From contig JNDT01001934.1 in assembly GCA_000697055.1 (NCBI GenBank), positions 1 to 64,000 of the forward strand: 64,000 nt of DNA, read 5' to 3'. A program made the translations under genes and the position numbers. Under the pieces are notes generated by a model. It did not search any database. It was given only the letters and a program-made list of their open reading frames with translations, and was not told the origin of the DNA. The DNA comes from Saksenaea vasiformis B4078 (taxonomy: Eukaryota > Mucoromycota > Mucoromycetes > Mucorales > Saksenaeaceae). Positions 33,556 through 54,730 of the stretch are shown here, piece by piece (position 1 is the first letter of the stretch; the number at the start of each line of letters is the position of its first letter).

Positions 33556-33777
33556 TTAGTGTTTGTAACCACCCTTGGAAGAGCTTTGGACGACATCAAC
33601 TTCGTCGCTGTTATCGTTCAAAGCGCCATACTGGAGGAGACCATTGAGGGCACCGCTTTTGAAACCACCATCATTGTTGATACCATCGGCATCCTGAGAA
33701 GAACCACCATAACCGGGAGTGGCGGAGACAGCAGCGGAGAAGAGAGCAACAAGAGCGATAACGGTAGCAGCCTTCAT
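33556..33777 (-). CDS. Small secreted protein SSP-A (intronless member)
   Basis: A single-exon gene of 73 residues. A signal peptide is clear: MK, hydrophobic core TVIALVALFSAAVSA and a VSA-type cleavage site, leaving a mature chain of about 54 residues. The mature part is Gly/Ser/Asp/Asn-rich, cysteine-free, and shares GINNDGGFKSG, LNGLLQYGALNDNS and VVQSSSKG with SSP-B and SSP-C. At the position where the other four members have an intron, this gene reads straight through (SGA-LNG). The upstream side has a TATA box. Function is unknown; secretion is inferred from the leader. SSP-A and SSP-B are divergently oriented about 1.7 kb apart. Confidence 0.9.
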   Translation of the reverse strand: MKAATVIALVALFSAAVSATPGYGGSSQDADGINNDGGFKSGALNGLLQYGALNDNSDEVDVVQSSSKGGYKH

Positions 33778-33850
33778 AGTGATTTCTTGATTGAGATTTT
33801 CTTGTGGAAGTGTTGTTGAGTATTGTCTGCTGGCTAGCCAATCGTCAGTC

Positions 33851-33859
33851 TTTTATATC
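33851..33859 (-). promoter_or_regulatory. TATA box of SSP-A
   Basis: ATATAAAAG on the minus strand, about 75 bp upstream of the SSP-A ATG. The same element recurs at comparable distance in front of all five SSP genes. Confidence 0.75.
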
Positions 33860-35375
33860 TTTTCGTATCCTCTCAAATTTACATTAGTTGCTGGACAGAG
33901 GCACTGGTACTGTCGGTAGTGCATGCGTTCTATGATTATAATTTCATGCAGGAGGTTTAATGAGAGGAGCCAGCTTGTTGTGGGTTCTCCATTCTATTGT
34001 TGAAGGATATATGCTGAAGATCTTGTTACCGCGCAGGGATAATCAGTGTAGCTGTTTTAGTACAATCACGATCTGAACCAAAGAGAGAAATTGCACCTTC
34101 CTGTCTCCTTAGTCACCTGTATTATCTGCCCTACAGTGTTCCGATTAATTGTTGCACTTCATAGCTTTGCAGCCACCCAGATTTGATGGCTTACTAGCCA
34201 GTTCGCCTACGATATGTGCTGCGCAAAGTTTTCTTGGAAACCAACGATTAGCAAGCATAAATGACTCTCCCCGCGGATGTAACGTGCAGATCGGTTAATT
34301 AGCATAAGAACCGGAAGGCTTTCTAAATGTAGGAGAATTAAGGGCCCATAGGGAGAGATAACAGCTCGGACCAGGTCATGTAGGGGACACCCGCATCCTA
34401 ACGCATGTAGAAAGCTCAAGTAAACAGTAACTCTGATTTGGGAATATTGAACTCAACTGTCGAACCCCTCTTTCCTATTTTGGCCTCACGCGGCAGATAG
34501 ACGGGTGAAATACTGCAACATGTTTACGCACCGTGAACGGAATATCCAAATCCATAGGATTGTAATTTTCTTACTTTCGCCACTACATGCATTCAAAGCA
34601 GATTGTGCTAAATGCAGCTTCATTGTTGTGGTTGCGATTAAAGAGGACGATAGAAATAGTCATTAACGAAAGAATAGTAGGAGCGCACCCATCCGTCTTA
34701 TGTTGTGCGATATAAAGCATGCTAGACATTAAACGACGTGCATGTATGGTTACAGTGGTTATGTCAGACGAGCATAGCGTACATATCTCACAGCCATGGA
34801 ATGACCCGGTGATCAATAAACACACTGTTGTATGTAAACACGCTGCTGATACAGAGAAAAATAATTACTTATGGTCCAAGGGTTTCATAAAATAGTCAAA
34901 GAAACGTCCTAGGCCAGGCTGGTCAGATTTGGCAAATGCAGAACAATTCTGCGTAGAATATCGTAATAGTTTAGGATAGCTAAGCTCTGGGATAAAGGCC
35001 AGACTTTCCGTTTGAACGGCCCTTCCTCTTACTTTTTCATATACATATGCACGAGGAGAAACAGGGATTAATAAATATCATGAGTGGCCTCTGTTTGCTC
35101 TTTCAGTATTAGCTGCATACATTGCTCAAAATGACGAATATGCTTTGTTCGATCTTCTCCTATGTTTTACACGTAAAAACTGCGCAATCAAAGGAAAGAG
35201 GTCCTTTCGGGCGAATCATTGGTGCAGCTGGAGTATCATCTCCTTGTTCCACTTGTAAAAGCAAAATTAATTAACCTAAGCACCTCTGCAGCTGTCTTTT
35301 GTTGAGTCACATCTCCTTGGCTGTCCTCGTTACATGGTGGCTCTATGCAATTTCTTTGTTTCAGGCGTCCTCAAG
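33860..35375. other. Divergent intergenic region between SSP-A and SSP-B
   Basis: About 1.5 kb with no gene supported. It separates two divergently oriented paralogs and so should hold their upstream control sequences. I noticed no shared long repeat between its two halves. Confidence 0.45.
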
Positions 35376-35376
35376 G

Positions 35377-35385
35377 ATATAAAAA
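35377..35385 (+). promoter_or_regulatory. TATA box of SSP-B
   Basis: ATATAAAAA followed by GGGAC, 60-70 bp upstream of the SSP-B start codon. Confidence 0.75.
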
Positions 35386-35445
35386 GGGACTGAATGGAAG
35401 CGTTTGGAGACATCTTCATCAGTCAAATACATCAATCAAGCAAAC

Positions 35446-35731
35446 ATGAAGGCTACATTTGTTCTCGCTATCGTCGCCGTTTTCTCTGCTATTGCCTCCG
35501 CTGCTCCTGGTGGTGGTAGCTCTCAAAGTTCTGATGGTGTTGGAAACGATGGTGGATTCAAGAGTGGTATCGTAAGTACCCAATAAACCTCACGAACTAC
35601 CGTTCTAAATTTTTGATCTACAGCTTAACGGTCTCCTCCAAAATGGTCTTCTTAACAACAATGAGAAGGATACAAATATTGTTCAAAGCAGCAAGAAGGG
35701 ACATGGCCGCGGTAAAGACTACGACTACTAG
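35446..35731 (+). CDS. Small secreted protein SSP-B
   Basis: Exons 35446-35571 and 35624-35731 encode 77 residues. Leader MKATFVLAIVAVFSAIASA with predicted cleavage before APGG. The mature chain has GVGNDGGFKSGI, then, across a phase-0 52-bp intron, LNGLLQNGLLNNNE, a VQSSKKG segment and a basic/Tyr tail (GRGKDYDY). There is no cysteine. Start choice: the open frame extends 42 bp further upstream, but the ATG at 35446 begins the conserved MKAT leader. The intron donor is GTAAGTACC, identical in SSP-E. Function is unknown. Confidence 0.92.
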
Positions 35732-38700
35732 ACCCGTTATACTGTTAGAATTTAAAGGCACAGTCCTTTTTTCTTCCACAGCAGTACACTGCTGAATTTG
35801 TCTCAGAAATATTTTTATTGTGAAGGTAGCAAATAAAGAGTGTTGTTATCCTGAATTTGTCCAAAACTTTTGATATTCACGTTGTCCTTCGATTCAAAAT
35901 CCTATCAGGAAGAAAATCGGGAGATAGAGTAGTCCGTGCGACCTAGAGCACTAGCAAACAGACCAATTTACATATAAGTTCGTTCCTGAGTCGAATTCCT
36001 TTGTATTACTATGATTGCCACCAAACTTCTATTTATTTTCTATATATATATGTGTTTTACAACGCTCGCTTCGAATTGTGCGGCTGCTACTTGTCCGGGC
36101 ATTTTTACTGCGATATAAGCTTATCAGAGTTACACGTCTATATCTCTGTATATTGTCGTAGTTAAGAAACAAGCACAATAGGCCAACTACATGAACAGAT
36201 TATGGTCACGGGTCTCGAACGTACCTGCCTGCTTAATGGAAAACTATATTCCATATGATCACAGACCCTAAACCGATGACTGCCACGATTCATAATTTCA
36301 GTTTAGACATTGTCTGGCAATGACAACTGGTATAATAGTGCCAAACTGTATACCAGTACCGTTCGGCATGTTTATGACATCTGGATTGTACGCGTAGCGC
36401 AAATTCAGATCCCAACATCAGTAGTACGAGCCGAGACAAAATTATCAATAAGCATTCAAGGAAACTGGGAAACAAGAGGTCAAAGAGCGCGTACTATCTA
36501 CGTCCAAAACGACGGACATGAAGGGAACCATCAATCAATAGAACATATAACAAAATAGCAGCAATCTCAAAAGAATCTATCTTCTTCCAACTGCAGAGTG
36601 TTTTGCCTATTAAATTGAAGCACGATCGTATGTGTGGGTGATGTAGACAGCCGTGCAATTTGGCAACTGATGTGATAAAAGGTAGATAATTATGTTGAAG
36701 TAAGGCATTGATATTGAGCTTCCGGAATTAGCTGGCTAGCCATTTGGCACACTTACAATAGTGGTGTCTCCCGACAGCACCGCCGTCCTTCGGATGCTGC
36801 AAGTACTGTCTGGTCATGGCCACACGAATTTTGTTTCATAGGCGGCTTTGTGTGATGACACCATGATGGTGTAGCTAAAACACTTCCTATCTCTTCTATA
36901 GCACCTGAGTTTCTATAGGTTATTGCAAAACTTTCTTGTCTGGGACCATCAGGTAATTATCAGCTCGGAGTTATACAATAGATCAATTTTACAAAACGTG
37001 GTTACCGCGGAAACAGGAGTACATGCCAACGGAGCAAATGCAGCAATCTGCACGATAGCCAATGATATACGTGCAACGCGGCAATATTGAGGAGTTGCAT
37101 GCATATTTCTGATACGAACACATGCTCCGTGCTCCTCGAGCTACATTAAAAAAATCCAGATTATGGCATAGCCATTCATCTCGAATTCATGGAAAGGGGT
37201 ACGCTGCTACAAAAAAAAAGTATACTTGAGGGCAGATAAACCTACCCTATTGATCAATCCCAATCAATTCTCGAGGTGGTGCAAGAGCCACTAGATAGTT
37301 TATATTAAGAAAAGAACGCCTTCCATGTGTCTGCCACGACAGAAATCAGAATGTGCGCCAGATTATTGACAGTGTCTTTTGGTTTCCATTTAACAAGGAT
37401 TCCTTGCGTGATATTGCGGTTATCGACTATTCCGTATACAAAATCGAAATCGCAAAAGATAAATGGAGCAGACGAGATGCATATTTTCAGTCACATTGAC
37501 CGAGACATCGTCCTCTTTTACTTTCCGTTTTTCAAGGTAGTGAAAGATTTTGCTTTCTGTACTTTTCTATTCTTCCTCATTCTATATGTATGGATCTTAC
37601 GTCATCCATCTTTCACCTTTTCCCTTCGATACTAGGGGCTATTTCCATTCCTATCCTCCCGGACCGGGATAGAGCGAATGTACTCAGTTAGCGATGCACC
37701 CACAGTCGCTATAAGATTTTAGTAAAAGTTTAATCGTAGTGAAAAATCAGCTGTTTGCGAGCTCACCTACAATGGATATTTTGATCGATTGAAAAGCACA
37801 TTAACAAAGATGTCTTTATTACGAGTGCAATATCGGACCTATTGGATCCTGTATCTAACACGAACAGCTCCGCTAACTTAATCACTTGTCGCTTGCAGTG
37901 CTTAAATTGGGATTAAGGAGTTGGCAAAAGAGCTTATTTCTACTTTCTCGCTCCTCTCCATTGACCGGAATCTCCGAAAAAGGGAGTTCGCGCTGAGGAA
38001 AGATTGAATTTACGGTTATTAGCGTATAGAATTGGCTCCATACTATACTTATATCATATTGGTCCCTCAATGGACGCAAAATCCTTATAGGACTACTCCC
38101 ACGCAAGATTCAAGGGTACATCACAAAAGAATACATTCGACGTAAAGTTTATTTGGAACGAACGCCCAACAGCCTAAAGGTGGCGCGGAGTTGTAGGATA
38201 AATACGATAAATCGAGGCGAATAGAAAAGATAGTGGAAGGCGCGTAGTACTAGAGTATATTAAAATTGTCATGTTTCCCACCATGAGAAACGGGTATTCG
38301 ACTGGATTTGACTTGGCTAAGGCTGGGTTAGTTCAGTGAAAAGGAAAAGAAAAAACTGTGGGATCCCAAATTCAGAAGTATTCAGAAAGATTCAAGAGGG
38401 TACACCGTTAGAACAAATTCAATTAGCTGGAGTTCGATAGGGTTCAGTAGCTGCCTTTTGCCACAGGAAATCAAACTAATCGAGTCCGCCGCAACGCTAT
38501 TCATGTATTATTTCACGTATCTTTGAAATAAGGATACTCGAATTCAACCATACCTTTTCCATGGGGGTTGTCTCGTTCTGTTAGAAAGAGTCTGTGAACT
38601 TAGAAGCAAGAGTTAAAGTACCAGTTATTAATCCTATCTATTCATTGATGCTATATTCATACGAAAAAGTTACAGATATGCCAAGCCTAACAGCTCTGAA

Positions 38701-38860
38701 ATGAAAAAGGAATTTTGGTGAAGCACCCGTCCCAAAGGAATCCAATCAGATACGATTTCTTAAAGTTAAGCAACGGAGAATAATCAACGTTTTAATAAAT
38801 AGCGATATTAAAGCAGCTGCATTACTAAATAGTAAATGTGCCTTCTGCTAATTTTGACTG
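35732..38860. other. Non-coding stretch between SSP-B and SSP-C
   Basis: About 3.1 kb without a supportable gene or recognisable repeat. The left end contains the SSP-B 3' UTR (AATAAAG at about 35832). Short open frames have no family features. Confidence 0.45.
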
Positions 38861-39163
38861 CTAGTTTCTGTCTTGGACAACGGTGGTATCCTCGCTGTTG
38901 TCGTTGAGAGCTCCCTTCTGGAGGACACCGTTGAGCTATGAATACAGTTAGATGAAATGCAGTTAATAATTATACTGTGTACTTACAATACCACTGCTGA
39001 ATCCACCTTCGTTGCCGACAGCGCCAGTGTCCTGAACAGTTGGTCCACCACCATAGCCCTTTCCATAGCCTCCTTCATAGTCGCCTTCATCTTCGTATCC
39101 AGGAGCGGCGGCAACAAGAGCAGTGAAGAGAGCAATAACACCGATGACGAATGTAGCCTTCAT
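38861..39163 (-). CDS. Small secreted protein SSP-C
   Basis: Exons 39163-38987 and 38935-38861 encode 83 residues. Leader MKATFVIGVIALFTALVAA, then APGYEDEGDYEGGYGKGYGG, a Gly/Tyr/acidic insert of about 20 residues that SSP-A and SSP-B lack. The family core follows: AVGNEGGFSSGI, the conserved phase-0 intron (51 bp), LNGVLQKGALNDNSED and VVQDRN. There is no cysteine. The 5' UTR has a TGAT/GATT-type short tandem array and a GGTTGGTT array just upstream of the ATG (seen on the plus strand at 39164-39200). Confidence 0.92.
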
Positions 39164-39249
39164 GATTGATTGATTGATTGATTGGTTGGTTGGTTGGTTG
39201 TTGAGTAGAGCGAGTTGTTTGATGCTGGACACTGGCTTGAACTTCGTCC

Positions 39250-39260
39250 CCTTTTTATAT
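39250..39260 (-). promoter_or_regulatory. TATA box of SSP-C
   Basis: ATATAAAAAG on the minus strand, about 90 bp upstream of the SSP-C ATG. Confidence 0.7.
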
Positions 39261-39261
39261 C

Positions 39262-41820
39262 TTTTGGTTCTGTTGATGGATACTACAAGAACAGTCGAAT
39301 ATGGAAGAAATTACCAGTAGCGTTAAGGAGTTTCATTTGGTTCCTCTATTTTTTTTTAAAAAAAAATTTAATGATCGACATGCAGCACCTGTCAGCTATT
39401 AGGGATCTACGATCATTATTTTTCCATAATTGTTGAACAGCGCTTTGGCAGGTGTACCGGAATAACAATAGGTCCTTGACACGCGAGCAATCATCTAATC
39501 CATATTTTCTGATACTGCGTCTTACGCCTCATACATTTTGATCTCCTGCTAGCTTTAGGTTTACCTTTCTTAGAAAATATACAGTAACAGTAACAGTAGA
39601 GCTAAAGTTTAGTAAATGAGACATAGCAATGCTATCAATATTCATATGAAGATTCATGGAATGAAGATGAAAGGGGTTCCGGAAGCTGTACCCCTGCGCC
39701 TGAACAAATTATTTCCTTTACTACTTTTTTTTCTCGGTAATGACACTACCGCATAAGTGTGCCTCCTTCACGGAAGTGAAATTGAAGGATTATATGAACA
39801 GCAGAATGATTTCTCTTGTTATTCAACAAGAAACTATGGCTTTCATATCGTTTGATAAATCCATTAAAATAAGAATTGTAACCGTTAAGTATATCGGAGT
39901 TGTTTGTTGACAGCCTTTGTAAAAGAACGGTAAATTGGTAATGCATTGTCGATCCTGTAGAGGCTCCTTGTTCTCCGACAGATGAGGGGTGGACGTCCTC
40001 TGATACAGATGCAATCGGTTCGAAAGGAAGTATTCAATATTTACTGTCGAAAAGGATCAAAGGATCTTCATCATTATTGTATACTTTACAATGTGCGAAA
40101 TGAAAGCAAAATATAGCGGATGGAGGTAAACAACAGTTACTATAGTTATTAACAGGAATAGCAATCATAAAATCGCTATGGGGCAAACATCGCAGCATCT
40201 GCTTAATTGTTTATGTTTTTCCCCCGTGGTGTTTTCATAAATCCATAATCAAATACTGCACCTGTACCGTCTGCATAGACTCTTTTCCTGTGGAAATCGA
40301 AGCATTTCTACCGATATTTGACTACAGAAGACAAGTAATGAATGCGCTTTTTTGCATTCAACTGTAAGCCAATTACATTCCAGTGTCAAAGAATAAACTT
40401 TCAACGACTTTATTGTTTACTTATTGTAACAGATACATTGCCATTTTTAGTAAAGTACAATGGAACTCTACCGCATTGCAGCTGCATAAAGAACAAAACG
40501 TACGGTACACGTGAGTGATGCATGGATTATGCTTAAAACTCAGAAACGACACACATGCTTTACACCATTTATTGAAAACGCGTTTACGCTGTTACAGCTA
40601 AAATCCAACTGTTCCTTGAAAAAAAAATAGACCAATAACTAACTTCCTTGAACTTGATCCTCATGCTATGCAAAATTGTTTGAGCGTTGTAAATATCTGA
40701 TAAATACTCATTTATCCTTCAAGGGTATTGCTGCACGCTAACAGCGGTCAACCGCGCAGCTCGAGTGACGGGGAGGGTAGGAGACGTTATCCACGTTTGA
40801 GCTGCATCAGAAGATGGTTTTAGCATGTATTACTGGCATGTATTACTGGATGCTTTCAGTAATGTTCCATTATGATAGGCCTTGTCATCTAGAATGTGAG
40901 GAATAGTGTGTATATGGGAAGCGTCAGGCTTTGGTCTTATGAAATATCAAGCTCTTACAACCACAGCCGTTGGAACAGAGGACTTCCAGGCTGAAGCTAC
41001 ACACAGGGAGTATAGATCTTCTGTTATGTAGTTGTGTAAACTCCTTCACCGGTATACAGTGACAAAGATAAATGTCTTCCTTGAAAATGTGATGATTTTT
41101 ATTTGGAGTGTACCACTCTCTCAAGCCATTTCTATACCAGATGTCAAAATTTCATTCAGTTGCTGTTGGCGCAATAGGCAACTCAATTGGTTGAAAAATC
41201 AATGTGGGTATATGATTATCATTTCAGACTACGCAACTGCGCTTGGTATCCTATTTTGCTATTTGGTTGTAAATACAACTGCTACTATTCCACTCAGTTA
41301 CAAATTCCCCACTTATTAATATTTCTCAAAAAGAATTAGCGTAGGAGTAGAGGAGAGCGACGCATTACGCTTAGCCTAATATCGAGTCAATGATTGATGC
41401 GCAAGGTGAAGCATCGTTGACATAGCCACTGTAATGGAAAGCAAAATAGGATTTGAATAGTTGTATAGAGATACTTGAGTACGATGTCTATGAATACCGA
41501 AAAGGTTGCAACTGTTGTAATTCATGATAGAAATTGAAACAATCTGGAAAGTCGATCGATGTCTACCAAAAAAGTGCTAGTAAGGCCAAAGGCTTGCGAA
41601 AGCACACCTAACAATATTCTCAGTTTCTTGGCGGGATATCCTCACGTCGGTGCAGAAGAAGTCTAAAAAATAGTCAGAGTGAGGTGTTTTACGACTAAAA
41701 GCTAAGGGCAATGTAAATAAATTGAGTTCTCTTCGGAAAAGGGTCGTCTTGAGGGAAAAGGTCGCCATGAGACGTTCCCCAAACCGGTCTTTCAGGATCA
41801 GATTGAACAATAGTTGTTTT
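39262..41820. other. AT-rich non-coding stretch
   Basis: About 2.6 kb with no gene I can support. An ATTACTGG-containing short direct repeat (GCATGTATTACTGG twice, near 40825-40850) is the only local structure noticed. Confidence 0.4.
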
Positions 41821-41825
41821 CATTT

Positions 41826-42040
41826 TCCGCTAACTTTGAATTCAAAGATTGCTCCTTAAACAAACCCTCAAACCATCTTGAATAATGACCGATAATCCTG
41901 TAATAATCTTTTGATTCGAAGATCTTCGGTCATTTTCCCGCAATATTACTGTAGAATCGCAAGCCTAGTAAGAATACCATATCTATCTACCGCTAAAATA
42001 CTGGAATCGCGACTTGGTATTATAGACTTAGTTGTTACGT
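41826..42040. repeat. Solo copy of the Fanzor-element 3' flank
   Basis: This segment matches, with gaps and substitutions, the sequence 190-410 bp downstream of the Fanzor stop at 51246. Shared blocks are a CTTGAATTC region, TTTGATTCGA, a TGTAGA block, AGTAAGAATA followed by CATATCT, and AAATA(C/T)TGG, all in the same order and orientation. No Fanzor coding sequence lies next to it, so it looks like a deletion derivative or a non-autonomous end of the same element. Confidence 0.6.
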
Positions 42041-42062
42041 CTGTACAAGTCCACGACGGCAG

Positions 42063-42106
42063 ATAGGCGCCAAGACTAGAGAGCTTCTTGAATTGGCGCC
42101 CCTATC
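42063..42106. repeat. Inverted repeat next to the solo Fanzor-type flank
   Basis: ATAGGCGCCAA is followed about 19 bases later by TTGGCGCCCCTAT, which can pair to form a strong GC-rich hairpin in an AT-rich background. It lies about 25 bp beyond the end of the repeat similarity, so it could mark an element end or an RNA hairpin. Confidence 0.5.
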
Positions 42107-42730
42107 GGGATATGGCCAATGGTATGACCAATGATAACGGACCCGAAGAAGGCAAAAGGTCACTAATGATCTCTTCCAGATATTTCAATCTACCGTGGAT
42201 GTATAACCCGGCTACGGCTGCTGGCGACCAACGCAGGATGTGGCTGTTCATTCTAGCATCTTCTAATATGCAAATTTGTTTTATAAAAGTTAAGATGTAA
42301 AAAGCAAAAAGAAGTAAAAAAAATTGTACAGACGACAAAAGAACACGTTTAATCTAAGTATGTCTCAGAAGGAAGAAGCGCTTGAGAGAAAAATGGCAAA
42401 AGATAGAGAACATAAAACATAGGAAAACTACAAGGTATGATATGGGATGGACATGGGATCGGTCGACATAGGATGGCTAGATTACAAGTGAAGACATAGA
42501 ATAAAGATGTCGATCCAGTCATTAGAGTATGAATATGGCTTTTATTGACCGAAGACGTAAGAAATTATGTCCTTCGACTGCCAGATAATGGATGGATGGC
42601 GGCCGCCTGAGATCGTTGCCGACTACTGAGATCACCCAGTGCAACTATACACTCTTCTTCTATCTATTCTTTTCTTTACCTATGATTTGGTGATAATAAT
42701 CCCTTCGTCGTCTTGTTCGTCTTTGTTCTT

Positions 42731-42825
42731 CCTACCCATCCTCTTCTTATCCATCCTCTTTTTACCCGTCCTCTTCTTACCCGTCCTCTTCTTACCCGTC
42801 CTCTTCTTAACCGTCCTCTTCTTAC
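42731..42825. repeat. 15-bp tandem repeat array
   Basis: About six units of CTTACCCGTCCTCTT with single substitutions. On the minus strand it reads as a Lys/Arg/Thr/Gly repeat of five codons (KKRTG), inside an open frame from 43000 to 42680. On the plus strand it makes a Leu/Phe-rich frame. Confidence 0.85.
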
Positions 42826-44000
42826 TTACCTTATTATTCCTGTTCTTGTTCGTCTTGTTCGTCGGTTTTTTTTTTGTTTCCGGGGAAGAGGGGAAATCGC
42901 AACCCATGACAGGTTCGACGCCTTCGCTGAAGAGAAGGCTGAAGAGAAAGTAGAGTGACACTCCACTAAAACCCCTCTCCCGTTGTGCTTGCCATTCCAT
43001 CCGCCGGCATCATCCCATCGCCGTGACATGGAGACGCATCCGCCGATGCATGGGTTGTCCGTTTGCGAGATCAACCTACCTCCGGGATCCGAACCTCCAT
43101 GGAGAGAGAGGATCGTACACCAGCTGAACCAGATGGACGCATCCAGCCCTGACAGACAAATGCTGTCAGGAACCGTGCCCGCCAGTTCCCGCCCCCCGGA
43201 ACCGACGAATACATCGACTTTAGACATTACTCTCTGGTGTCATGTAAACCAGTCGAACGAATGTTCTAATAAAAAGCGCATGTCGGCTATCAAACCGGAG
43301 TGACAGCTATACGGACAGATTCAGTACCAGGAATCAGCCGAACCCGTAGATCAGATCCACAGAACAATGCGTTAACTGACCTCTGAGGCTGAGGCACAGC
43401 TAAAAGGGAGGTATTTTAAAGAATCATCTCTGGGAACCTTCCATCCCCACAAGACCAAAGTCCTGAGACGTGCGCAGGCTAACTCAATGAAGAGAACTCA
43501 ATGAAGAGAAAGCCGGTCAGGCGAATACCCCAAGAACAGTTCCTCCGGACTGACTGTCCTTAGAACGCACGCTGCCACGTAGTTTAAGGATACCTCCCTG
43601 GGAACATGGCCGGCCCGCGCGTGTTGGCCAACTCCATAAAGGTGAAAACCAGTCAGCTGAAGCTCCAATCCGGAAAAAAAAAACCGGGAAGCCGATACCC
43701 GACCCAAAGGAGCCTGATCAATCCAATGGACACGCGAAATCCCATAATCATAATCGACAAAGGATTGTGAAGTTTCATCCCGGGACAGGAATCCGCTAAT
43801 CCTAAGGCGATGCGCCAGATAACCTCTCTCGAAGTTACCTACTGACCAGCTCCTCCTCCTCAGAAACCAGTTCAGCCAAAAGGACCAAGGTCCTAAAGGG
43901 CGACTTTGGAAATTCGGCACGGTGACGCATAACTTACTGGATGACGTCCAATGGAGGACTGGCAGCATATAGATGGTGTAAAGCCACGGCCATGGGTTTG
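42826..44000. other. GC-richer island with overlapping open frames, unidentified
   Basis: Sequence here is visibly richer in G and C than the neighbouring desert. Open frames occur on both strands: plus 42983-43303; minus 43227-42826 and 43968-43498 (156 codons). None shows a motif I recognise. The change in composition and an open minus frame suggest an inserted element or captured host fragment, but no terminal repeats or polymerase/transposase motifs were found. Confidence 0.35.
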
Positions 44001-44125
44001 CATAGTCCCGAGTCTCTACAAAAAAAAAGCATGAACAAAGTACAGCGAGTTGTTATCTACTCGCCGTACCATGATCGAGAGCGTATACAAGTGGTTAATA
44101 AAAAAGAAAAAAAGAAATTAAACAC

Positions 44126-44932
44126 AAGAAACATACCTTGAAAAGGAAGACCGATCGTGGAGACTCAGTAGACTATGCAAATTCTGACGCCAGAAGCGAA
44201 GCGGAAGGAGAGGATGGATGGATGGTACCTGCCTCGGAGTCGCAAACTATAATAGTTGAGTTACACCGTGTGAAACAAATAGTACAAAAACGTACCTAAT
44301 TTGATTCGGCATTTGCGGTTTGCATAACACCGACGCGATCGTGAATGGTTGCAATGTGTAATTAACAAGTCAATGAATGGAAAAGATCAATTCAATGTTA
44401 CTTACTTCGACCAAGGTGGAATGTTCAGGGCCCGACCAGTAAGTAGAATCTGTCCGCTTGAGAGTGCATGCGAAATCAGAAATGGGAGTTAATGAGAAAA
44501 GAATAAATGATCGATCGATTCATAAAGCATACCTTGTTCAAGTAAACAGAAACGCGTTAAAGACATGAGATACGCGTGTTTACGGGAACTAAACAACATG
44601 TAAAAAAAAACGATTTCATTTGGAAGATGACTTACCGGGTTGCTGCGCCGCAGCAAGTGAATAAGGAAATGAGGAAAGCAGTAATAAAGAGAAAGAAGAA
44701 CGAGATAAAAGATAAAGTTAAAAAAGAATAAGAAAAACAAAAGAGAGAGAAGAAGAGAAGTACAAAAGAAAAGAAGTATAAAAAGAAAAGCTCTTTTGTC
44801 GGCATCATCAGCAAAGAGCGGCCAGCTCTTTGCAACGTCTTGTATGTCTGGCCAGGACAACAAGAACGCATGATGATGGTGTTGGCCTCCGACACTGAGC
44901 ACAACAAGAAGTATAAAAAGGAAAACTTACCA
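44126..44932 (-). other. Cluster of consensus splice donors on the minus strand, possible multi-exon gene or relic
   Basis: Read on the minus strand, donor-like GTAAG/GTATG/GTAC sequences occur at about 44930, 44635, 44533, 44406, 44297, 44228 and 44137, with pyrimidine-rich tracts and AG acceptors between them. The density equals that of the real genes in this window. One candidate exon (about 44897-44790) is followed by a 140-bp pyrimidine tract. I could not assemble a protein with a known motif, so this may be a lineage-specific gene, a spliced non-coding RNA, or chance. Confidence 0.25.
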
Positions 44933-45583
44933 AAAGAAGATATAAACGAAAGAGGAAAAAACACAAAAAGGAAAAAAAAGACGGCCTTTTTAAAGGCCTC
45001 TCGAGAAATCAACCCCAGCACGTTATGTCACTCCCCCAAAAGATAATGCAGTGTACCCGAGGAAAACGAAAGAGGTGAATGTAATGAAGCGATCTTTCAT
45101 TTCGAATGTTTGTTGCAAAGGGCATTAACGCATTCGAATGTCATTTAGTTCGGTCATTTAGCTGAGTGCAACGGAATCGCGTTGTAAGAATATAAAATTT
45201 TACTGCGGATATTCATGCTGAGTGCAAACATAAATTGATCCGTTACTTCAGTCGGATTCCATTAACGGAAAGAAAAAGGTTCCTGCGATATCAATTGCCG
45301 TTTCTCATCACTAAAGGTAACTGTCAAATATGAATTGCTTATAATTATGTGTAACCAAAAAAAAAAAAGAAACGGATTTGCGTCTGCTGTCATTGCGTAG
45401 CGTTTTATGCGATCAGTTAAAATATCCGTAGGTCTGGATCACTCATTCTGTCATGGGTCATTACGTGGTAAAATAGATAGACTAGCTGCAGTCTCACGTT
45501 ACGCAAAGAGGCAAAAGCCGTTTTCTAGACGAAAGATGCGCTGAAGCGGAACTAAGATGCCAGCTTAAGTACTTCCTATTTAG

Positions 45584-46621
45584 TACAGTCACATGACAAA
45601 AAATTGGCAAAAAATTTCATTAGGAAGGTTGATATATTCATAAACTTGTATATTATGCATTTGACTGACGAAGAAAAGATTCGAATTGTTACTTTTGTTC
45701 AAGCTGGTATAAAACCAAAAAAGATTGCAAATAAGACTTTAGTACATTTAGAACCGTATTGCGTCTTGCATAATTACGAAAGGCCACACACAGTCAAACG
45801 ACCTGCAGGGTCTGCATTACCCAAAAAATTTAAGCAACGTGATATTCGCAATCTACTGAGAATAGTGAAGAAGAATCGTCGCGCAACGCTAAGTGAGATT
45901 ACGAAGGCATTACCAGTTAAAGTCAGTGAGCGCACAGTTCGCAGAACGGTTCATGAACAAGGATTCCACAGTCATATCGCAAAGAAGAAGCCATTTCTCA
46001 GCAAAGTTCACAAAAAAAGACGACTGGACTTTGCTAGAAAGCATAAAGACTGGACTATTAATGAGTGGAGAAAGGTAGTTTGGACGGATGAAGCATCCTT
46101 CGAAAAAGGCAAAACTCCCGTGTCACGCGTGTATGGCGATTTGCAAACGAAGCGAACAACACCGAATGTCTTACGCCTACATTCAAAAGTAACAAGTCAT
46201 CTATCATGGTATAGGGTGCCATCCGTTATGGTGAGAAATCAGAACTAGTAATCCTAAGCAAGAACAGACGGACAGCTAAGGATTTTGTGGACCAAGTGTA
46301 TGAGGGTCCGCTTCGCCGTTTCTGGAAAGGAAATGAACAACTAATCCTGATGGAAGATGGTGCACCCGTTCATAACAGCAATATTGCAAAAAAGTGACTG
46401 CGCGATCACTAGACCTTATTTCCATCGAAAACATTTGGAAGCAAATGAAAGATGGCGTACAAAAGAGGACTGAGTTTTATACAAAGCTTGACGGATTGGA
46501 AATTCTTTTACAGGAGACGTGGTATTCCTTGGATGCAGATTCATGGAATAAACTTATCAAATCCATGCCTGAGAGGATAAAAGCTGTAATCAAAGATGAA
46601 GGAGGCTCTACCAGCTGGTAA
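45584..46621 (+). pseudogene. Decayed Tc1/mariner (DDE) transposon
   Basis: The left end starts TACAGTCACATGACAAAA, typical of Tc1-type termini next to a TA. Transposase coding starts at ATG 45655 with a helix-turn-helix (LTDEEKIRIVTFVQAGIKPK) and a second HTH-like region (SERTVRRTVHEQGF). Catalytic pieces are found in three frames: WTDEASFE (first D, frame ending 46248), then LMEDGAPVHNS (second D) after an in-frame TAG in a MV(W)GAI block, then SIENIWKQMKD (third acidic residue, 46394-46621). Part of the usual segment before the third motif is missing. No matching right terminal repeat was found. It cannot encode an active enzyme. Confidence 0.88.
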
Positions 46622-49600
46622 CACTCTGCGCGTTATCAGCGTTCAGCTTACTTACTATGATTGACGCGTTTCAGTATGTTCTCACCATACTGTTCATTCT
46701 CATTTATGCGCTACATTTTAACGACTTTTATGTATTTCATACATAGGCTAAAACCTGAATTTTACTCAGAATGCCGTATAAATGGTTATTAGGAGCTTCC
46801 CGCAATGAAATAATTACAGTAATAGCGATCCTCATCCTGTTTACTCCAATATCTCTTGATATTGTACTGTGCACCATCTTCACAGTATATTAAATTAATT
46901 TTATTTAGGAGCCATACAAAGACGAGTAAACGATCTATCTAATAAAGATACAACAGTTTCACAGATATCTTGTTTGTACCTGTCTACCATCTTTATTTCT
47001 ACCTCTGTTTCTCAAATACATGAAGTCCACACATGTATAGGTTCCTATGGCGTCTAGTTAAACTTATTTGAACAACCTCTATTGAACATACCAGTTTATA
47101 CAAGACAGCATGACCGCTACTAAATTCAGTTAAGTTGACGTAGGACGAACCAGCATAGAAGACGTCAACGCAGCTATAGTATATTGCTATTCATAAACAT
47201 GCGCGATATTTTACAAACTGGGACCCAGAGTTTACGACGATAATCTTTTATTATAAATTCTTTGCCGCTCCTCGGCCTCTTCCATCTGCCAGCATACGAT
47301 ACATACCCGGTCGCCTTGCTTGAACCGTTTTCATTGGCTCTATTTATTGATAAATGCATGAGAATTTCAAATACTGCAAGTATTCCATGTATTACCGTCG
47401 AGAAGCCAGCCTTTAGTTTCTTCATGTCGCACATGCGACACATGTCCTGAGGAGGAGGGTGAGGAGGAGGGAGTTCGCCTCTTGCGCGTCGAAGGTCATT
47501 TCTTGCGCGTCTTGTCATGTTGTACGAGTTCATATCACGGATGACGGTAGTAAATGTAAGTAAAAATTTTGCAAAGCAGATGTGCAGCATTACCTCCAGT
47601 ATATGCGAGATGCATCTACGAATGATAGCCAGTGTAGTCAGGAGACAGCGAAGCTGAAGACAATGAATAGTATGTATACGAGCGAAATCATGAGTGACAG
47701 TAGCCTCACACAAAAATTTAACTGCATACCGGGCACAGTGATATAAAAGTCTGTGACATCAAAGTCAGATAGATATCGGTGTTTGGCCTTTTTTAGATTA
47801 TCGATTTTTTATAGCAAGAGTTTTTACATCAACATTCCTTATTCCGATTACTGACCATACGATACCTACAAAGAAAATTATCCAATCTATTTCAAAAAGA
47901 TCTTCTTCATTTTTCGATTACAGCTCTCTACGTTGTATACCTCTTCTCCTTATCATATGTTCAATGCATGTGAGTGCTGTTCAAAAGTTTGTAATATCTC
48001 TATGAATTGTCTGAATAGAAAACCGACAATTGCATAAGGAAAGAGCGCCCATTTGAGTTTTCAAGGAAACTATCTTTCGACGGCCTGTTGTCTTTTGGAA
48101 GCTGCAGTAGGAAATCATGTTTCATAAAGAATAGAAACAATGTTCAGAAATTTTGTAAATACAGAATTATCTTTAGATCTGGAAGATGACAAATAAGTAT
48201 GCAACGTCCGAGTATCCCTGTGCCTTGGACAAACAAAACAAAATGGTTTAGTCTATATTTTCTACATGATGCCATAACCTAGAAATATGCAGAAATATCC
48301 ATATCTGCTTTAGTGTACAGGACGATTCGTTTCTCACATGACAGATATTTCATTTTATCTCTTTTCCATCATCCTCCAGTAGATTTCTGTACAAAGACAA
48401 TGCGCACTCTTTGCAATTTTAGCGTTTAACTTATAGTATGTCTGCATATGACTATACTTCATATTAACTTCATATGCCATTTTTCGAGAGTATCAGAAAT
48501 AGATTGATATATTTTTCATATGCGTGGATATTTATCGTGTTTGAGAGTCTTATGTCATATATGCATGTTCCAAACCAGCAATATTGACACCATTCTACTG
48601 AATTCGATTATTGAAAGAGAACTCAGTAGCAATAGATATTGTTCTCATACAGGAATAAAAAATCTACAATCAAGTCTCATAGACTTCACTTTTTTTTACA
48701 AGTCTCAATACCCAAGTCTATAGTGCGTCATTTTAGAGTGCACGTTGATCAGTGCACATGAGTTTTAAAGCGAATATTAGGATCAAGGTACTCCAGAATC
48801 TAAAACATATGCAAACTAGACTTTGTTTCAGCTCAGCCCGACTCATTCTACAGTCACTAGCATTATAGCAATTTGCGCATGTCAAAGGCGTATGGAATTG
48901 TACATGCCATATTCCTTGCATTCAGAACAAAAAAAAGCTGTCTACCCATCACAGTTGGTAATTTACTGAGAAGTTTCTATTTACTAATAGCAATCAGTGT
49001 CCTCACGGTTGGAGTGAATCCTACAATAAACAATGAAATTGTTTTTGCATAAGGTTTATAGCAAGAAACCATTCCAAAATCGGTAAATGCGATATCGTCT
49101 CTCAAAACAAGATAGTGGACGGAGGTATAGATATCTGTAAATTTTTGAATTCTAAACCGATTACTATTATTCGATCGTTCGATTGGAAACGTTATCCTTG
49201 AAAAAGAACACAACAGAGAAAATCGTTGGTAGATGTAAATGTTTGTAAACCTTAAGTACTCTCTGTGTAATCAGGTGTCTCTTCACGCTACGCATACGGC
49301 GATTGCCCTATTTAGACTAATACACAGTATGCTGGTGTCTGTTTTCGGTAACCTTGTCAACACAGATGGTTGAAAACAGACGGGAAGAATTAATGGGAAA
49401 CTGTTCTGAATCATATGTGACATTATGTCATGAAGATTTCCATTCAAAGCGTAAGCCCTGCTTCGGCTGTGCTATGAATAGGAGATGTGGCCTATTTTGC
49501 AATAAGTAACATTGGAAGTAGTAGATTCCAATTGTTTCCGAGCTTTTATGCTTTAACTTTCTTTAGCTGTTTAAGTCTGTGATCAAGGTATACCTTCCAA

Positions 49601-50278
49601 ATAGCGTTTCTTCTTGCTTCAGTCCTTAATACCTAGTAAAGACTACCATTAGCATGAAAAATCTGCACGAATTGGATTCAGTATTGTATTAAGAAAAATT
49701 GAGCAACATTATGATCAGCTGTTGCAGAATCAGAAATATTAGCGATTTCTGCATGACTTGATTTTCCGTGCAGCATGAGGCCATTTCGGAAAAAAAAAAA
49801 TTTATTCGATCCTACACGATGATCAACTTTACATATCAGAAACAACAACCTCTAAGTTACGGAGGGTAAACGCTTTATCCTAGTAAATATGTAAGCGTTT
49901 ACTTTCTTGTAAACTTCTAGCAACTATCCATTATCTTTATGCGATCCTCTGGAAATGTACTTTCTTTTTTCATCCTGGATCTCTTGTACTTTTAACAAAG
50001 CAAAACTATTAGTATAAATAAATACAGATAGAAGTGACCTGTGTCTTTGTGTAACTTCATCATGTCCTGGTCCAAAACAGAGTTTTCTTCTGGCTTACTC
50101 GATGTACCTAGCGGGTTGGGAGGGATAATCCAAAATTTATATAAGAACGTGACTCAATGGCGAAAAGCACAGTAAAGCACTCATTCTTCTTCTATTCCTC
50201 TTACTATACAAGTAAACCAGTGGACAAAGTCCTTCTCCAAATTGTCAGAGGGGTTTCTTCCTCTGTTTTTTCGCTGAA
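46622..50278. other. AT-rich desert between the Tc1 relic and the reduced Fanzor gene
   Basis: About 3.7 kb. The only sizeable open frame is on the minus strand, 47713-47174 (179 codons, with a LPPPHPPP segment and CRMCDMKK), lacking any motif I recognise. It may be chance or a lineage-specific gene. A TATATAAG box at about 50138 lies 140 bp before the Fanzor ATG and may be its promoter. Confidence 0.4.
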
Positions 50279-51246
50279 ATGCCTCCAAAAAAGTTGCAAA
50301 AAGGGTAAACTTGTAATATCAAACGTATAACACTTCGATAGTCGTTAATGTACTTAGTAGCAAAGAGAAGGCTGTTGCTACCAAGAAATCTCCAACTCCA
50401 GTAGACTCGTTAAGTCGGAACAGTATCATTTCACAGTCTTCTAATACGCTCGCTTTTTTGTCTAGTGGGTCTGATGATGACTCACAACTACAATTAGCCG
50501 TCCAGCTTAGCCGTCAGAGCCACATGCTATCATCCACCGTTACTGGCCCTTCCTCTGCTGCTGCTCCTTCATCACCCGCTAGCGATCATGATTACTCAGG
50601 GATGTCTAACTTGCAAATAATCTTACACAAGAAACGCAAGAAGAAGAAGCAACAAAAGTATGTGCCTTTCAAATTGTAATATGAACTTGACTAACTTTTT
50701 TTTTATTTTCACGTATAGGAAACGGGCAAGGGAGAAGTAGTATGGCAGTTACACTTATTGACAGCGCTGTTAATTCTCTTTGGTTGGTAGGCGTCCACGA
50801 TCACAGAAACAGAAATGGCGAAAGGCACCACTACGGCCAGACAGGATCCCTTTGGTTGCATTCGGGAATGCCACACTCCAAACGAACATGCGCGGCAAGA
50901 TCTCTGGACTGGCTGACCGCTGTCGAGTTCTCCTGAAAAAGGCAGAAAATGCAGGTTTACTTGTTATGGTCACTGTGGACGAGTACAACACGTCAAAGGT
51001 AATATTGACAAACACATGGAGACACTCCATATTAACGAGGATACTTAGGTGTGCTCCAGATGTCAGCAGAAGAACATGGAAAACTTACGACTGAACGAAG
51101 AAGCGTACGGAACGCTGCATAGCGTGCTCGGTTGCCAAACCTGTGGCACGTTATGGCAACGCGATGTCAACGCCAGCAGAAACATACACAAGCTTGCAAC
51201 ATGCTCTTCACTTGGTCAAGGCCGACCATCAGTGTTTCAACGCTGA
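50279..51246 (+). CDS. Reduced Fanzor gene lacking the RuvC-I region, with UIM-like N terminus
   Basis: Exons 50279-50304, 50358-50657, 50791-50998 and 51049-51246 join to an uninterrupted 243-residue frame. Residues 1-108 are Ser/Lys-rich, beginning MPPKKLQKG, with an acidic-hydrophobic segment DDDSQLQLAVQLSRQS and a run of Lys/Arg. Residues from about 109 are Fanzor C-terminal sequence: QKWRKAPLRPDRIPLVAFGN, VTVDEYNTSK (RuvC-II Glu), zinc-finger pairs CSRC and CQTC, and WQRDVNASRN (RuvC-III Asp), ending GRPSVFQR. The RuvC-I Asp region and most of the usual N-terminal half are absent, so DNA cutting is not expected. The 133-bp third-exon junction is a hand choice: the nearer acceptor at 50718 runs into a stop after seven codons. 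The last intron is at the same site as in the left-edge Fanzor. It could be a relic, or a retained short regulator. Confidence 0.7.
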
Positions 51247-51439
51247 TCATATCTCGCTGTAACAAAAACAGTAGATGCTTACAGGTAAGCCTTCTTTTTA
51301 TCGCGTATTTTATTGACAATTTTTTGTCAGGTGACTGTACATCTGGAGAATTTTAATGTGGTTCCCATGGCAAGGGTACTTTTGCGAAGTAAAGCATTTT
51401 TGACGCTCAATTCAAATGATCGTATGGAAGAATTATTAC

Positions 51440-51660
51440 TGCCATTTTCGTTGATCTTGAATTCCATCATCCTTCCTTTAATAAAGCCGACAATCATTTA
51501 ACAATCCTTTGATTCGAATATTGACGGTAATTTTTCTCGTAAGATCAATTGTAGAGTCTATCTATAGTAAGAATAACATATCTCTATACCGGAAATATTG
51601 GCACGCCATAGCGTCACCATAAGCCTCAGCGTAGAGATCGTCTTAGTCAACAACGTTGGA
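51440..51660. repeat. 3' flank of the reduced Fanzor, shared with 41.8-42.0 kb
   Basis: Similar to the solo copy at 41826-42040 in the same orientation. In TnpB/Fanzor elements the region after the gene carries the guide RNA and element end, so this block is the natural place to look for both; that is inference from family biology. Confidence 0.6.
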
Positions 51661-51899
51661 ACAGTGTGTACCAAAACTCGGTCCAATCAATGACATTGAA
51701 TCGATATTAATTCAGCATGGCTTTCCACGTTATAAAAAGGTGATGTGATCTTTGATTCGGTCAAATGACCTATTTTCGCTAGTTAGTATAAGCCTTCCTT
51801 ATGACAACAAGAAGGAAATCTACGTTAAGATATTTTGCGTACGCCGTTTCTCTATAGGTTTCGCTGTCTACTGAACAGTTTTTTACGCTACCCGAAATA

Positions 51900-52275
51900 A
51901 ATCCTGCGTCCAAGAAGAGCCAGTTTTTGTTAAAGAAGAGATTGAATATGCGGCCGTTGGTCTGGGAACTGACGACAATATTGGCTTAAACCACAGCCGG
52001 GACGGTTCGGGATAGGCTGAATGATAGATAAAAAGAGACATGAACGATCCTGTATATGTGATGAAAACTGATATCCTTACCGGGCATGCAAGATGAAAAT
52101 AAGAAGAAATTCATGCATGTCTTTAACTCCGGATTATTTTGGATGGACCTTTAGTTAGACATTTTTACTGCTTGCAATGGGTTGCCGAAAAGCCATCACT
52201 GAAATACCTTAATGCAAACCGAACCACTCCTCAGCGAAAAGAGGCATCGCTACTCCAGCGCAGCTCGTAAGTCAT
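51900..52275 (+). mobile_element. Dispersed repeat R1, copy 1
   Basis: This copy shares with the 62-kb copy (opposite strand) the blocks around GGGACGGTTCGGGATAGGCT, ATGGATG before a CATTTTTACTGCTT block, and GAAATACCTTAATGCAAA. Broken translations give TVRDR and LKYLNANR segments also seen in the other copies. The identity of the element is unknown. Confidence 0.55.
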
Positions 52276-52758
52276 CAATCAAGGTTGAATCCTCTAGGAA
52301 TTCATTATCCTTTCCTTTTTTTTTTGTTAAAAAAAAAAGGAGAAGAGAAACGGACAAATAACAGAAGGCATTTCTAATTGTCCGTCCAAAATAAACCTCG
52401 TTCTTCTGCTACCTTTTGGCATGTTACCTTTCTGGATTTACAACTTGCCTTTATAAATAGTGAGAGAAGAATCTAGTTCTGTAGCACCAAATGGTATGGA
52501 GTTATTAGAATCCAGTTCAGAAGAGGAACGATCAAAATCGCATCCAATAGATAGAATAGAATAGTACGTATCACTATTGGAATGCGTGACGGTATGAGTG
52601 GTTTTCTTTCAGGACAGAACTTATCAAATGGACTAGATTCGGTACCCGATCATTGCACACAGCATTTCGATAAAAAAAAATAGGGCAATTAAAAAATAAG
52701 CAACTTTATTGCCATGAACAAAATAGTTCGCTGTAGCTGGGTTTAGAGAAAATTATTA

Positions 52759-53009
52759 TTATCCACGGCCGATCTTTTGGTTGACTTCGCTAGTTTGCTT
52801 ATCGGAAGAGAGAACGTCAGCGTCGACAACATTATTAAGCTAGTCAAGAAGAGGTAAATACCTCGGAATAAAATGAAAATCTTCCAGTAGATACTTACGA
52901 TTCCGCTAGTATCGCCTTTGCTTCCGACCTTGTCAGCTACTTGAGTAACAGCAGCAGATGAAACAGCGGCAAAGAGAGCAGTAAGAGCGAGGAAGAAAGT
53001 GACCTTCAT
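52759..53009 (-). CDS. Small secreted protein SSP-D
   Basis: Exons 53009-52899 and 52839-52759 encode 63 residues. Leader MKVTFFLALTALFAAVSSA, then AVTQVADKVGSKGDTSGI. The phase-0 59-bp intron sits at the family position, and the second exon gives LNNVVDADVLSSDKQTSEVN and a KIGRG end. There is no cysteine. It is closest to SSP-E (shared VLSSD, S-V-(N/D)-Q), and together they form a second subgroup of the family. Function is unknown. It is divergent from SSP-E, 1.5 kb away. Confidence 0.9.
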
Positions 53010-53063
53010 GGTTGATTATTGCTTTTTTTGTTGTTGTTGGGTGATCTGGAGAAATTATCTGGT

Positions 53064-53072
53064 CCTTTTATA
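53064..53072 (-). promoter_or_regulatory. TATA box of SSP-D
   Basis: GGTATAAAAGG on the minus strand, about 57 bp upstream of the SSP-D start codon. Confidence 0.75.
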
Positions 53073-53079
53073 CCAGTAC

Positions 53080-54420
53080 AGGGTAGGATCGGGACAGCTT
53101 GGTTTTAAGATGGTATTTTTTTAAGCAAATACTCCTTTCTTGTGTCTTAACACGGAACCAATACGAGTGCACTCTTTGATATACTTATTCAGGAGAATCT
53201 CAAATAACCGGAAGCTAATCAGCCACATCGTGTCGTCCGTTGCTCTAGGTGCCGCCATGCAATTCACTTGAATGGCCCTGAATCATAGCAACCCCTACGC
53301 CAAGGTTAGCACAGCCCGCAACCCCCAACAATGATGCAAGTGACTGTATAGTTCATCGAGATGTTTCTCGGGAGAAGCAAAATGTACATTGCAGCACTGA
53401 TGAACCAAGCTCGTGGGACAACTAATCAACGTCAGTGTCAACCTTTTTCTTTCCCGGCTACTGCACATGGTACAGTTATGCATTATACTATGTAGGTAAG
53501 TAAGCTATGTGGATGTTAGCCCTTAGCACTGACCCGCACGTTTAAAAGGTAAAACAACAGCAGGAGAACGTCAAAGACAGCCTACCCCAAATGAGACCCG
53601 TCTTCGATTCATATTGTTCTGGTTTACTGCTCGCTCGATCTTTAACCGTTAACGGAAATAGTTTCTAAGATTACTATTGGGTCGGTTACTTGACTGTTAT
53701 CGGAAGTATATTGTAGGAAGGAGAACGCCAAAATACCTATTTGGTCGAGGACAGTAACAAATGCTTACGAGGGGTTAAACACGCGGTTACTTGGAGCAAT
53801 GGAAAGCTCTTTGATTAGTACGTGATAACCTACTCTCCTTGAAAACTTTCCAATTACTCTATGCAGCCAACCCTCTTTGCTCATGAAGGCTCGTACCTGT
53901 CATGGCGTTCCAACTAAACCAAGTTAATGCACAGTTCCTAACTCTCAATTTTCATTATGTACATGCTTACTTCTTTTTTTTTTTGTTTTTGTTTATCTAT
54001 CGTAGGACGCTACCCATAATCAAGGAGTAAGTCTCTCTCTTTTTTTTTTTAAGAACCAGTTATCTAAAGGAAGGTTTTTAAAGTTTGTCTCTATCCACTA
54101 AAGGAGATTAACTTTAAAAAACAAGTTGTCGGTTGTACGGTTACCGTAACCCTGTTCTAGGCTTAGGTCAGAAGGAAAAAACAAATATACCGTATTTGGT
54201 AATGACCGATTTTCGCGCTTTTCCGAGTGTAGGGATTTCGGCTTCCATTCGACGGATGGAAGGATAAGGGGGAGAAAAAGAAAACTCAAAGTCTGTGTCT
54301 TCTCGATCATGCTTTCAGGAGAAGAAAAAAAAGAGTCCCTTTCGCCGACTCCCTGAGATCAGCTCGTCTGTTCTCAAAACCATAATTAAGAATGGTTGAA
54401 ATGGTCTCGATTTACCTGAA
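53080..54420. other. Divergent intergenic region between SSP-D and SSP-E
   Basis: About 1.3 kb with no supported gene. Like the SSP-A/SSP-B interval, it separates a divergent pair and should hold upstream control sequences. Poly(T) runs occur near 53973 and 54040. Confidence 0.45.
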
Positions 54421-54425
54421 TTCTT

Positions 54426-54436
54426 CTATAAAAAGG
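54426..54436 (+). promoter_or_regulatory. TATA box of SSP-E
   Basis: CTATAAAAAGGGCAC, about 65 bp upstream of the SSP-E ATG. The same AAAAGGG context is present at SSP-B and SSP-C. Confidence 0.78.
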
Positions 54437-54495
54437 GCACATAGCACGACTCAAAAGACATTATCTCTCGAACAACAAAAACATCTGTCTCAAAC

Positions 54496-54730
54496 ATGAA
54501 GTTCACCGCTGTTATCGCTATCGTTGCTCTTTTCGCTGCCGTTGTCTCTGCTGGTGGTATCCAGAAGGCTTCGGAAGTTGGTAGCGAAGGCAGCACTGGT
54601 GGTATTGTAAGTACCAATTAACGTGGATGGGGATATGTCTTATTCACCGACTATCTAGGCTAACAAGGCCGTCAAAGCCAATGTCCTCTCCTCCGACGAC
54701 TCGACCGCCAAGGTTGACCAGCGCCAGTAA
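54496..54730 (+). CDS. Small secreted protein SSP-E
   Basis: Exons 54496-54606 and 54659-54730 encode 60 residues, the shortest of the family. Leader MKFTAVIAIVALFAAVVSA, then GGIQKASEVGSEGSTGGI. The conserved phase-0 intron (52 bp, donor GTAAGTACC) is followed by ANKAVKANVLSSDDSTAKVD and the end QRQ. There is no cysteine. Codon choice in both exons is biased to C-ending codons (GCC, GTC, ACC, TCC), as in strongly expressed fungal genes, in contrast to the AT-rich surroundings. Function is unknown. Confidence 0.92.

Follow-up and report, generated by a model that had tools for sequence, protein, structure and literature searches.

An unnamed, duplicated family of small, predicted secreted proteins with a conserved intron site in Saksenaea vasiformis

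Five short genes and their relatives

The first 64,000 nucleotides of contig JNDT01001934.1 of Saksenaea vasiformis B4078 (the whole stretch analysed, called the window here) carry five short genes, SSP-A to SSP-E, or A to E below, within 21 kb between 33,556 and 54,730. The window is the first half of a contig of 126,075 bases (C438), itself part of the 38.7-Mb assembly of 666 contigs that was searched. The genes stand where the initial annotation had put them and encode proteins of 60–83 residues. Each begins with the leader that had been described, starting with MK, continuing as a hydrophobic run and closing with a small residue, any residue and alanine. We assigned this leader as a signal peptide by eye, and infer from it that the proteins are secreted; splicing is likewise predicted from the DNA. 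The genes and their TATA boxes (positions relative to the start codon) are as follows.

33556..33777 (-): SSP-A, 73 residues, intronless
33850..33857 (-): TATA box of A, TATAAAAG, at -80
35378..35385 (+): TATA box of B, TATAAAAA, at -68
35446-35731 (+): SSP-B, whole gene, 77 residues
35446..35571 (+): SSP-B exon 1
35572..35623 (+): SSP-B intron, 52 bp, phase 0
35624..35731 (+): SSP-B exon 2 with stop
39163-38861 (-): SSP-C, whole gene, 83 residues
38987..39163 (-): SSP-C exon 1
38936..38986 (-): SSP-C intron, 51 bp, phase 0
38861..38935 (-): SSP-C exon 2 with stop
39252..39259 (-): TATA box of C, TATAAAAA, at -96
53009-52759 (-): SSP-D, whole gene, 63 residues
52899..53009 (-): SSP-D exon 1
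52840..52898 (-): SSP-D intron, 59 bp, phase 0
52759..52839 (-): SSP-D exon 2 with stop
53065..53072 (-): TATA box of D, TATAAAAG, at -63
54427..54434 (+): TATA box of E, TATAAAAA, at -69
54496-54730 (+): SSP-E, whole gene, 60 residues
54496..54606 (+): SSP-E exon 1
54607..54658 (+): SSP-E intron, 52 bp, phase 0
54659..54730 (+): SSP-E exon 2 with stop

At least nine members are present in the genome, the search scoring best candidates only. Whole-genome searches, in which B to I and one Radiomyces protein each served as a single query, added four genes to the five of the window, namely F (contig C368), G and I (both C232) and H (C168). At C220:54879-54974 a weak match (E 0.9) contains one stop. 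In this genome the mature chain is 41–64 residues long and consists of a linker, variable and rich in Gly, Ser and Asp, and behind it a conserved core, in which a Q-containing segment, GNxG, SG(I/L)-LNxLLxxxLL and a closing VxQ come in that order.

Relatives were found in a second fungus of the Mucorales. A profile of the nine members, run against 5.8 billion proteins, gave a single match, in Radiomyces spectabilis (E 2.3e-9), and a second profile, led by that protein and joined by the nine core segments, gave 13 (P0001 to P0013), all from the same species. As the second profile was led by the first match, the mature chains were tested separately: a profile of the nine mature chains scored all 13 Radiomyces proteins at 23.9–48.6 bits, the best of 20,000 shuffles reaching 14.6. 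In the reverse direction six of the nine rose above the best shuffle, while F, G and I stayed below it. Within this genome, leave-one-out profiles, in which eight mature chains were used to find the ninth, succeeded nine times out of nine against the same number of shuffles. The claim that the genes form one family is thus upheld, and we consider it very likely that A to E are real members of one unnamed gene family. A protein search with C alone had returned five candidates, none at E 10 or better. The search relies on shared five-residue words. It may overlook relatives in other fungi, as the first profile overlooked 12 of the 13 Radiomyces proteins.

The Radiomyces proteins, of 65–79 residues, are unnamed, have no assigned function and were seen as proteins only. 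Like the window family they have the leader and a core of the form Q...GNEG...SG(I/L)LNNLLKGGLL...Q. They differ in being closer among themselves, with linkers that are often rich in histidine: the mean identity between pairs of proteins is, for the leader, 0.81 in Radiomyces and 0.50 in this genome, for the linker 0.28 and 0.16, and for the core 0.75 and 0.35. Across the mature chains of the family, 45–61% of the residues are Gly, Ser, Asn, Asp or Gln. The same longest contig (623,957 bases) is listed for all 13, and the locus numbers of 11 of them, lying between 618675 and 618688, suggest a tandem array.

Two details of the earlier description were sustained in part. The family had been called free of cysteine, which is so for the mature chains of A to E and for 20 of the 22 members altogether; the exceptions are F and Radiomyces P0006, with a single cysteine in each mature chain. 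Two subgroups had also been proposed. D does join E in the tree, at 96/94, whereas A, B and C, with a mutual identity of 56–64% that is higher than their identity to most other members, form no resolved clade: together with F, G, H and I they are unplaced relative to each other. The two species fall on opposite sides of one branch, weakly (63/83).

The family has no counterpart among named ones at the cut-offs used, in keeping with the statement of the initial annotation that it knew of no named family with such a pattern, and no search placed the members in a family already characterised. Pfam gave no family at E 0.001 for the 22 members (best 0.023), and the nine members from this genome matched nothing in NCBIfam at E 0.01 (best 0.013). 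PDB profiles gave no relative, the two best matches (E 0.23 and 2.4) being unrelated. No description of the family was found in the open-licence papers searched, among them PMC7482071, PMC6339444, PMC6158513, PMC6433966 and PMC7550596.

Intron, copies and codon use

A phase-0 intron at the conserved junction had been noted in four genes, and it extends to all eight of the nine members that possess one. When the 22 proteins are aligned, exon 1 contributes its last residue to column 75 and exon 2 its first to column 76 in eight genes out of eight, directly before the LN of the core. The introns of B to E (52, 51, 59 and 52 bp, or 1, 0, 2 and 1 modulo 3) are all of phase 0, begin with GTAAGTA and end with CAG in B or TAG in C, D and E; those of F, G, H and I (56, 49, 54 and 50 bp) are likewise GT..AG and of phase 0.

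Gene A alone reads straight through the junction, the intron missing exactly. Its similarity to G begins at -85, takes in the TATA box and continues into the coding region (gene A with its promoter, 33556-33857 (-)). Because the promoter similarity is kept and the intron is precisely absent, partial replacement of the gene by spliced cDNA would fit better than a retrocopy inserted elsewhere. The cluster illustrates clearly how an intron site can be conserved and the intron yet be lost precisely in one gene.

As a bare pattern the junction, GGNATHGTAAGTA, is not enriched: it occurs 18 times genome-wide and 27 times in a reversed control. Five of the 18 matches are B, C, D, E and H; the other 13, judged on the frame that precedes the junction, do not look member-like. 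Five of these 13 (L012, L013, L018, L024 and L025) are embedded in a common dispersed repeat that has no relation to the family.

Some of the copies arose by duplication of DNA. G and I lie 4.2 kb apart (L055, C232:38000-46000), a tandem duplication in which some 660 bp upstream are 77% alike and in which I, compared with G, has additional sequence between its TATA box and its start. Beyond the stop codon C shares sequence with G, and G with I, and the 5′ flanks are common to C, G and I; it is from these shared flanks that DNA duplication follows as the origin. Synonymous sites are near saturation in many pairs, which makes the pairwise ratio of nonsynonymous to synonymous substitution rates (dN/dS) a blunt test. 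It is 0.26 for A and B, 0.32 for B and C and 0.47 for A and C, and across the 36 pairs it lies below 1 in 33, reaches 1.06 in one (E and H) and is undefined in two.

A TATAWAR box stands between -58 and -96 in eight of the nine genes, and at about -157 in gene I; the probability of meeting one in a random 50-bp piece of the window is 0.02. Codon use is equally distinctive. In the nine family genes 312 of 350 fourfold codons end in C or T (89%; 0.82–1.00 per gene), as against 360 of 703 (51%; 0.44–0.62 each) in nine open stretches elsewhere in the window that we selected as coding (p 5e-37). Seven fragments of translation GTPases in this genome, whose type names we assigned from sequence, served as a yardstick. 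The three of eEF1A type end in C or T in 53 of 58, 33 of 34 and 27 of 30 cases (90–97%); the others give 48 of 50 and 26 of 50 (EF-Tu type), 38 of 47 (eRF3-like) and 13 of 26. The family therefore uses codons as very highly expressed genes do. This evidence is indirect, and it is the best clue to function that we have; taken with the TATA boxes, the eEF1A-like codons suggest bulk expression, and it is on the two together that abundance of the product is inferred.

That all this is chance likeness between reading frames that are not genes is scarcely credible: the chains are short and of low complexity, three of the nine (F, G and I) fell under the best shuffle in the reverse search and the junction pattern is not enriched, but the other shuffle tests (nine of nine and 13 of 13), the single intron column, the codon bias and the annotated homologues in a second species all speak against it.

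Candidate roles outside the cell

The leader would direct the proteins of the family out of the cell, and the genes look as if they were built for very high output, with TATA boxes, eEF1A-like codons, several copies and partial clustering. Such features make a bulk extracellular product the most likely one. Our hypothesis, put forward tentatively, is that A to E belong to a family that some Mucorales make in abundance outside the cell, acting in bulk as a component of the coat or matrix of hyphae or spores, where attachment or self-association might fall to the linker, a flexible one, and to the short hydrophobic stretch in the middle of the core. Behind this we would place, in order, a role in interaction or defence, some other bulk extracellular role, and a signalling peptide. 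The proteins that cover the hyphae and sporangiospores of Mucorales seem poorly known; with its duplicated genes and eEF1A-like codons, this unnamed family offers a direct candidate for one that is extracellular and made in bulk. The list of functions left open by the initial annotation is thereby narrowed, a low-dose pheromone and a cationic antimicrobial peptide being argued against, and is not settled.

Several observations weigh against a coat. Codon bias speaks for abundance, not for place or purpose. The chains are hydrophilic overall, with a grand average of hydropathicity (GRAVY) of -0.05 to -1.15. The core looks amphipathic by eye, and an amphipathic surfactant helix had been considered; this idea is weakened by the helical hydrophobic moment of the core, with p between 0.09 and 0.72 and below 0.05 in none of the 18 valid rows (those for A, P0002, P0006 and P0009 are void, the wrong segment having been picked). 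AlphaFold placed one helix over the LNxLL segment and left the rest of the mature chain unstructured, at low confidence, the predicted local distance difference test (pLDDT) of the models being 58 and 56. Since the moment is not significant and the models are of low confidence, no assembly mechanism is supported. Mucorales are not known to have hydrophobins, a point to which the hydrophobin search of this genome, its controls being silent, adds nothing.

A bolder form of the coat hypothesis, which we think improbable, is that an essentially cysteine-free surface or matrix protein, made in bulk by some Mucorales, does here the job of the hydrophobins of Dikarya, by means of a Gly-rich linker and a short LLxxLLxxxLL core and not of disulphides. 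We know of no earlier coat family of this kind in Mucorales. Hydrophobins (PF01185) resemble the family in being small secreted proteins present in several copies, and for a possible coat role the comparison is no more than a working analogy. They carry eight conserved cysteines, a pattern without counterpart in the 22 mature chains, each of which has none or one. PF01185 is also absent from the ten Pfam families that the 22 members matched at E 1 or better, the set used for comparison. Nor does that set include a family of chaplins or curlins, the bacterial surface amyloids. Those are small surface proteins rich in Gly, Asn, Val and Gln, a resemblance of style; the genes described here differ from theirs in being eukaryotic and intron-bearing. 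As to spores, a study of germination in Rhizopus delemar only supposes that hydrophobin-like structures may coat them (PMC6158513).

The closest competitor, which we regard as unlikely though to be taken seriously, is a set of abundant interaction peptides, released against or towards bacteria, competing fungi, amoebae or a host, defensive or effector-like, and diversified by duplication. The proteins are small, secreted-looking, multigene, clustered and restricted to one lineage in the databases searched; the linker varies greatly between paralogues, as the identities given above attest, and high expression would suit an abundant antimicrobial product just as well. Yet conservation resides in core and leader rather than in the linker, and 33 of the 34 defined dN/dS values are below 1, so that nothing in the core points to an arms race, as far as a test blunted by near-saturation can tell. 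The net charge, from -8 to +2, is negative in 17 of the 22 chains and positive only in F and H, which is at odds with a classical cationic antimicrobial peptide; an amphipathic helix, the other mark of such peptides, found no significant support in the moments already given.

Another bulk role outside the cell would also suit codon use and TATA boxes: the proteins might store nitrogen, lubricate or form a metal-binding matrix, and seven of the 13 Radiomyces proteins have three to seven histidines in the mature chain. We nevertheless consider it rather improbable, as the nine members of this genome have zero to two histidines and a mere store needs no conserved core.

Precursors of signalling peptides, pheromone-like or quorum signals, are very unlikely. 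Such a reading could invoke the dipeptide KR shortly before the core in Radiomyces P0010 and P0011, a possible Kex2 site, and the KK of B, all the more as Kex2-processed repeat proteins (KEPs), which are small secreted precursors, are numerous in fungal secretomes and found in many fungi (PMC6339444). KR, RR or KK occurs, however, in only three of the 22 mature chains, one site each, and no repeated units lie between such sites as they do in KEPs. Codon use like that of eEF1A would also be unusual for a signal and, with promoters of the bulk type, argues against a low-dose pheromone.

Neighbouring features of the window

Between the A–C and D–E groups lies a fragment of a Tc1/mariner-type transposase (45655-46248 (+); PF01498, E 4.2e-19), the open frame of which stops at 46248. 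Further on, at 50600-51360 (+), a degenerate stretch lies broken across several frames. A cysteine pair and an end resembling RDVNASRNI recall TnpB/Fanzor proteins, the match to PF07282 being weak (E 0.089), below its cut-off. Gene A is adjoined by exons of squalene epoxidase (PF08491, E 1e-43 and 8.5e-18), and the G+C content of the window is 41.6%.

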